A stretch of DNA of 64,000 bases from Deltaproteobacteria bacterium (lineage in GTDB: Bacteria > Desulfobacterota > GWC2-55-46), in assembly GCA_016234935.1 (NCBI GenBank), contig JACRNL010000001.1, positions 1-64,000 on the forward strand. Reading direction: 5' to 3'. Each line of letters begins with the position of its first letter. Within the stretch, counting starts at the first letter, position 1. The position numbers and the translations under genes are program-made. Below the pieces are notes generated by a model. It had not been told where the DNA came from and ran no database searches. It saw only the letters and a program-made list of their open reading frames with translations. This document shows, one piece after another, positions 47,128 through 47,482 of the stretch.

Positions 47128-47153
47128 TGACAAAGAGTCTTTATTTGTAATAA
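47128..47153 (+). promoter_or_regulatory. promoter upstream of the ZTP riboswitch
   Basis: TTGACA (47128-47133) with an AT-rich -10 candidate TAAATT or AATAAA at 47150-47157 (spacing 16-18). The transcript would begin about 30 bases before the aptamer. Confidence 0.65.
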
Positions 47154-47188
47154 ATTATACACGCAAAAAACAGACCTCTGACAACATC

Positions 47189-47260
47189 CGAAACTGACGG
47201 AATCAAGGTGGCTACCACCGGGAGACGGATGTATATACAAAAGCCGACCGTCTGGGCATG
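47189..47260 (+). ncRNA. ZTP (pfl) riboswitch aptamer
   Basis: The aptamer shows the conserved ZTP/pfl pattern: ACTGACGGAA (47193-47202), a GGTGG-CTA-CCACC hairpin (47207-47219), GGGAG, a variable linker, and the strongly conserved GCCGACCGTCTGGGCA (47243-47258). These blocks match the known Fusobacterium ulcerans ZTP aptamer, including GCCGACCGTCTGGGC. Known members sense ZMP/ZTP, markers of 10-formyl-tetrahydrofolate shortage, and control purine and one-carbon genes. Here the next gene on the strand is isocitrate dehydrogenase. Confidence 0.9.
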
Positions 47261-47317
47261 GAAATCCTCTATAGAAGATCATAGAGAATTTTTACACGTC
47301 CAGGCGGTTTTTTTTTG
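47247..47317 (+). terminator. expression-platform terminator of the ZTP riboswitch
   Basis: ACCGTCTGGGC (47247-47257), part of the aptamer, is complementary to GTCCAGGCGGT (47298-47308) with two G-U pairs, and is followed by a T9 run. An inner hairpin CTCTAT/ATAGAG (47267-47286) closes the gap. Ligand binding would keep the 47247 strand in the aptamer and block termination, so the switch is predicted to be ON with ZTP. Confidence 0.85.
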
Positions 47318-47331
47318 TCCGCCTGGCATCT

Positions 47332-47347
47332 GCCTTTCAAGAAAGGC
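47332..47347. repeat. palindrome GCCTTTCAAGAAAGGC (family E)
   Basis: Perfect 16-nt inverted repeat between the riboswitch terminator and the isocitrate dehydrogenase promoter candidate; followed by AAGTTAAA as in the copy at 28751 (AAGT). Confidence 0.65.
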
Positions 47348-47359
47348 AAGTTAAACTGC

Positions 47360-47388
47360 TTGACAGAACGGAGTTATTTTAGTTAATT
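47360..47388 (+). promoter_or_regulatory. possible second promoter before isocitrate dehydrogenase
   Basis: TTGACA (47360-47365), 17-base spacer, TTAATT (47383-47388). It would bypass the riboswitch and start about 90 bases before the ATG. Confidence 0.45.
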
Positions 47389-47482
47389 TAACCACTCAAA
47401 AGAAACACCGGTAAATACGGCCCGGCAAAGACAGATGCCGCAACATCCTTGGCGCTTGTTGTAAAACAAACAGGAGGAATAT

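Follow-up and report, generated by a model that had tools for sequence, protein, structure and literature searches.

Regulation of purine and folate genes is the textbook role of ZTP riboswitches, which are normally on when one-carbon units are short. The usual targets of the class (RF01750) are mainly purH, fhs, pfl, glyA, and folD. In the known ZTP ON switches, the ligand holds the P3 hairpin and the pseudoknot together and blocks the terminator (PMC7337938; PMC2864571), and a U of the P3 loop contacts the Z base (PMC7337938). In Bacillus and Oceanobacillus, a ZTP/glycine tandem riboswitch precedes the gene that starts serine synthesis from 3-phosphoglycerate (PMC9481103). On the enzyme side, the reductive-TCA NADP-dependent isocitrate dehydrogenase of Chlorobium limicola (Kanao et al. 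2002) is cited among monomeric isocitrate dehydrogenases in PMC5397045.

Here, a ZTP (ZMP/ZTP, pfl) riboswitch was analyzed within a 64,000-nucleotide stretch of a Deltaproteobacteria genome (hereafter the window), where it precedes not purine or one-carbon folate genes but icd and aclBA. The RF01750 model matched positions 47180-47264 of the forward strand over its full length (model positions 1-86) with 49.9 bits (E 3.9e-5, calculated for the window), above the gathering score of 39. The preliminary description had recognized the switch by the motifs ACTGACGGAA, GGTGG/CCACC, and GCCGACCGTCTGGGCA, all of which lie where it placed them, and the Rfam pfl model to which it pointed confirms the assignment. 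Helix P1 (47184-47190 with 47226-47232) encloses helix P2 (47207-47211 with 47215-47219), the pseudoknot strand GACG in J1/2 (47196-47199) has its partner CGTC at 47249-47252, and the P3 hairpin GCC-GACCGUCUG-GGC occupies 47243-47257, all on the forward strand. Among the 29 aligned aptamers of icd loci from relatives, which are inherited from common ancestors and do not count as independent events, both sides have changed in six of the seven pairs of helix P1, the aptamer core and the U of the P3 loop are invariant, and the P3 loop is near-invariant. The GACG/CGTC pseudoknot is likewise invariant, with standard pairs in 29/29 loci; it is a compensated A-U version of the GGCG/CGCC in the Rfam consensus. 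We infer that the invariant U at 47253 is the counterpart of the ligand-contacting U. Judged by its predicted structure, the riboswitch itself is canonical. The scan that would show a glycine aptamer covered the window and gave none there.

Transcription of the riboswitch would start from promoter P1 (47127-47156, forward strand), a sigma-70-type element upstream of the aptamer with TTGACA at 47127-47132 and TAAATT at 47151-47156, 18 nucleotides apart, that matches the consensus at 10 of 12 positions. Promoter-like matches of at least 9/12 were found 5' of the aptamer in 29 of the 31 icd loci, mostly with TTGACA about 60-80 nt ahead. Behind the aptamer lies an intrinsic terminator (47246-47316, forward strand), whose 5' arm GACCGTCTGGGC (47246-47257) is shared with P3 and pairs with GTCCAGGCGGTT (47298-47309). 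Put in terms of the aptamer, its 3' strand GACCGUCUGGGC (47246-47257) is the pairing partner of GUCCAGGCGGUU (47298-47309), and the latter runs into nine U (47308-47316). A nested hairpin lies within the terminator at 47267-47286, and the fold has an energy of -34.2 kcal/mol (z = -6.16). The terminator was found by direct folding; a simple terminator scan gave none because of its loop limit of 8 nt. The overlap of terminator and aptamer that had been described earlier is thus present. A terminator competing with P3 and the pseudoknot is the same design across the icd loci, and terminators have been rebuilt in the diverged leaders of relatives. Since the terminator reuses the aptamer 3' strand, the riboswitch should be an ON switch.

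A second promoter, P2, lies between the terminator and icd (47360-47388, forward strand), with TTGACA followed by TTAATT after 17 nt or by TAATTT after 18 nt. When P2 was defined as TTGAC[A/T] followed after 16-18 nt by a -10 element that matches at three or more of its six positions, anywhere from the terminator to the icd start, it was present in 22 of the 31 icd loci, compared with 1.2 expected from shuffles. The sequence around P2 is common to relatives in the alignment, and inspection by eye shows a comparable promoter in the leaders of relatives without the switch; under this criterion, P2 is missing from nine icd loci that do have the switch. The second promoter proposed at 47360 is therefore a conserved feature of the locus, and its presence means that icd would not be wholly dependent on the switch. 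We read P2 as supplying basal, ZTP-independent expression, to which P1 would add a ZTP-gated part. A ribosome-binding site, AGGAGG, follows at 47472-47477.

The first gene behind the switch (47483-49702, forward strand) encodes a 739-aa monomeric NADP-dependent isocitrate dehydrogenase (TIGR00178, 1345 bits against a cut-off of 950), with 1itw as the nearest solved structure. It is followed on the same strand by an AclB-like subunit of 422 aa (49778-51046) with ATP-grasp and citrate-binding domains (Pfam Citrate_bind, PF16114, above cut-off), whose nearest solved relative is the large subunit of citryl-CoA synthetase, and by an AclA-like subunit of 903 aa (51380-54091) that joins a succinyl-CoA-ligase-alpha part (CoA-binding/CoA-ligase) to a citryl-CoA-lyase-like C-terminus. 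The two subunits were named from their domain content because neither passed an NCBIfam model; on that basis they are an ATP-citrate-lyase-type pair, nearest in the PDB to citryl-CoA synthetase, and their predicted function is the ATP-citrate lyase (or citryl-CoA synthetase/lyase) of a reductive TCA operon. An AclA-like homologue occurs in 59/59 relatives searched and is near full length in most. These profile and domain matches agree with the gene order reported before, and no purine gene lies between the switch and icd, as had also been observed. Co-transcription of icd with aclBA is assumed here, and the repeat-bearing gap of 333 nt between the lyase subunits (51047-51379) counts against it. 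This gap contains two copies of CTACCCTCTCCCGCG as well as short stretches found elsewhere in the genome, resembling an interspersed repeat.

The pairing of switch and icd was followed through 59 relatives, searched with RF01750 and with the dehydrogenase. The switch precedes icd on the same strand, at a distance of 130-512 nt, in 32 genomes belonging to six families; chance co-location was rejected. Within the bacterium's own family, all 22 assessable genomes have the switch before icd; 22 of 27 icd matches carry it, and the other five matches lack the icd start. One of these genomes, G013, has an icd match without a start plus a second complete copy with the switch. In several relatives from other families, no switch could be detected at icd; in some of these, the 5' end of icd lies at a contig edge. 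None of the 32 loci assessed in relatives has a further gene between the two. On the upstream side of the switch, the neighboring gene differs from one relative to another, so the switch-icd unit stays intact while its surroundings change. G027 has a broken icd, but its purH and citrate synthase frames are broken as well, which makes an assembly error the probable cause.

Two exceptional genomes add independent weight to the link of the switch with icd and acl, as judged from gene order. G051 has no monomeric isocitrate dehydrogenase; instead, the switch is followed by a dimeric NADP-dependent enzyme (PRK08299, 635 bits against a cut-off of 335) and then by aclB- and aclA-like genes. An unrelated isocitrate dehydrogenase has thus taken the place of the monomeric one while the switch stayed, which indicates with unusual clarity that selection keeps the regulation and not the gene lineage. 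In G040 (L147, G040:C21), the switch stands directly before aclB and icd is on another contig, where no switch was recognizable by pattern search. In a third genome, G054 (G054:C7; L163, about 1773-1899), icd is still preceded by the promoter and by the aptamer's 5' half, but the 3' half and the terminator are lost, so icd would be constitutive from that promoter. Among 80 named icd loci of other organisms, a regex scan turned up the switch in L162 (G018, of this class) and, in decayed form, in L163 (G054), but nowhere else.

The class appears to have several further ZTP targets besides the icd locus. The first genes after 96 switch matches were tallied, some assigned by script and some by eye. 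They comprised icd (31 matches, plus one broken copy), rnfC (27), a class-V aminotransferase with serA (18), a CPA2-type antiporter (five), pntA (four, two of them with ppa in front), sucCD and then a KOR alpha gene (two), and a KUP-type transporter, the dimeric icd, and aclB (one each); the script left five unassigned, four of which look like further rnf or serA cases. In many of the aminotransferase-serA loci, hisZ-like and purA genes then follow, including the purA of G000, the genome to which the window belongs. The class-V aminotransferase (BhcA-like family) with serA under the switch (G000:C9 10137-10227, L252, L253) extends beyond the class. The switches before potassium-transporter-like genes, named by eye as CPA2-type or KUP-type (L129, L121, L086, L134, and L136 of genus g10, and L070 of G051), have no obvious link to one-carbon metabolism. 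G000 has four switches, which precede icd-aclBA, rnf, aminotransferase-serA, and ppa-pntAB. The last of these (L068 1938-2190; G000:C5 about 277437-277689) gave only sub-threshold Infernal pieces. About 130 nt are inserted between its P1/P2 domain and P3, with both halves there and the terminator intact by pairing, and this insertion is probably why it scores below the cut-off. purH is present in 56 of the 59 relatives and is near no switch. Outside the class, seven of 297 phylum genomes searched have the switch, none near icd; for five of the seven the associated genes were named by eye, with two switches before fhs, one before glyA, one before the aminotransferase, and one in a serA locus.

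The pathway genes of these genomes suggest where such a regulon would act. No fhs (formate-THF ligase) was found by Pfam search in G000, which is rated 100% complete, and no AcsB/CdhC was found in G000 or in any of the 59 relatives; the latter result led us to reject the Wood-Ljungdahl pathway as the one-carbon source. FolD is present in G000. Given these three results, 10-formyl-THF in G000 should come from serine, via FolD. As fhs occurs in 27 of the 59 relatives, this argument is strongest for G000 and the families without fhs. Serine derives from 3-phosphoglycerate, which is itself made from acetyl-CoA in growth on CO2. A 2-oxoglutarate:ferredoxin oxidoreductase was identified with NF006412 over cut-off at G000:C10:255576, and 19 of 21 genomes were over the cut-off. 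Citrate synthase is present in G000 and in 49/59 relatives, and an oxidative cycle may therefore operate as well.

Taken together, we favor, with a probability of about 0.62, a canonical ZTP riboswitch acting as a transcriptional ON switch over icd-aclBA, with basal expression from P2, within a wider regulon that raises the reductive TCA cycle and serine supply. When 10-formyl-THF runs short, ZMP/ZTP would accumulate and bind the aptamer, the bound form would stabilize the pseudoknot so that the terminator could not form, and transcription from P1 would then reach icd and aclBA; P2 would supply its share of expression regardless of ZTP. The other ZTP targets of the class, namely rnf, aminotransferase-serA, pntAB, and in some members sucCD-kor, would act jointly with them to raise NADPH (pnt), reduced ferredoxin (rnf), CO2 assimilation by the reductive TCA cycle, and serine. 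With icd-aclBA, sucCD-kor, rnf, pnt, and serA switched on, carbon would be pushed towards serine and from there through methylene-THF to formyl-THF. The preliminary description had suggested that the switch would link carbon fixation, or the supply of 2-oxoglutarate, to the status of 10-formyl-THF. The regulatory link is strongly favored because the pairing spans six families, survives the replacement of the isocitrate dehydrogenase, and sits in a larger ZTP regulon; the purpose of the link, the reductive direction of the flux, and ZTP as the ligand are what we infer from the genes. A broader reading, which we hold tentatively and at somewhat less than even odds, is that ZTP could be the master signal of the class for central carbon, reducing power, and autotrophy, with one class of ON riboswitch coordinating icd-aclBA, sucCD-kor, Rnf, transhydrogenase, and serine synthesis, and CO2 fixation paced by one-carbon demand.

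The best-surviving alternative, in our judgment unlikely, is that the switch regulates icd-aclBA not for CO2 fixation but for the supply of precursors: 2-oxoglutarate (for glutamate and glutamine), oxaloacetate (for aspartate), and NADPH, all three of which are required for making purines and folate once ZMP accumulates. The purA genes that lie behind the serA switch, both in G000 and in many relatives, fit this explanation, as does citrate synthase, with which isocitrate dehydrogenase could run oxidatively to 2-oxoglutarate and NADPH. However, an oxidative isocitrate dehydrogenase in one unit with ATP-citrate lyase would make a futile cycle, and the presence of rnf, pnt, sucCD, and KOR under the same signal fits reductive flux better.

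That another ligand is bound in this lineage, so that the odd targets of its switches reflect another signal, is improbable. The target set is unusual and the pseudoknot sequence is uniformly unlike the Rfam consensus, but the pseudoknot differs by a compensated pair, with the P3 loop and its U unchanged. Moreover, the aptamers before icd and before serA carry the same core, and serA is also a target in other phylum members, close to the published one. Least probable of all, and largely refuted by the comparison of loci, is the suggestion made earlier that the switch is an orphan left by rearrangement, with a purine gene once between it and icd and icd now transcribed only from P2: the P2 motif is conserved and G054 keeps icd without the 3' half of the switch, but the switch stays with icd in the 32 genomes with an invariant aptamer core and rebuilt terminators, none of these loci has a purine gene in between, nine icd loci with the switch lack a recognizable P2, and P2, although real, gives the orphan reading no support, since the switch has been retained along with both promoters.

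Under the favored ON-switch reading, a ZTP sensor is attached across a whole class of uncultured bacteria to genes that govern central carbon flow and the supply of reducing power. If the switch responds to ZTP, carbon fixation also comes within reach of this alarmone, and treatment with an antifolate should induce the CO2-fixation genes. No report of a ZTP riboswitch with isocitrate dehydrogenase or ATP-citrate lyase was found in the literature searched, a body that leaves out the founding paper of the class; as far as that literature shows, the wiring to the icd-acl genes would be a new and conserved role.

Compared with known systems, the dehydrogenase shares with the C. limicola enzyme a type able to act as a CO2-fixing step, and we know of no riboswitch link for the latter. 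The Bacillus/Oceanobacillus tandem likewise places serine synthesis, as a supply of one-carbon units, under ZTP control, with the aminotransferase-serA switch as its counterpart; it differs in that the regulon here extends to TCA-cycle and redox genes, and in its glycine aptamer, which has no equivalent in the window. With the ZTP class as a whole, the switch shares the aptamer consensus, the pseudoknot, the P3 loop, the terminator over the aptamer 3' strand, and the predicted ON logic (PMC2864571, PMC7337938). It departs from that class in its targets, which here are icd, ATP-citrate lyase, rnf, transhydrogenase, and 2-oxoglutarate:ferredoxin oxidoreductase, and in the conserved second promoter behind the switch.
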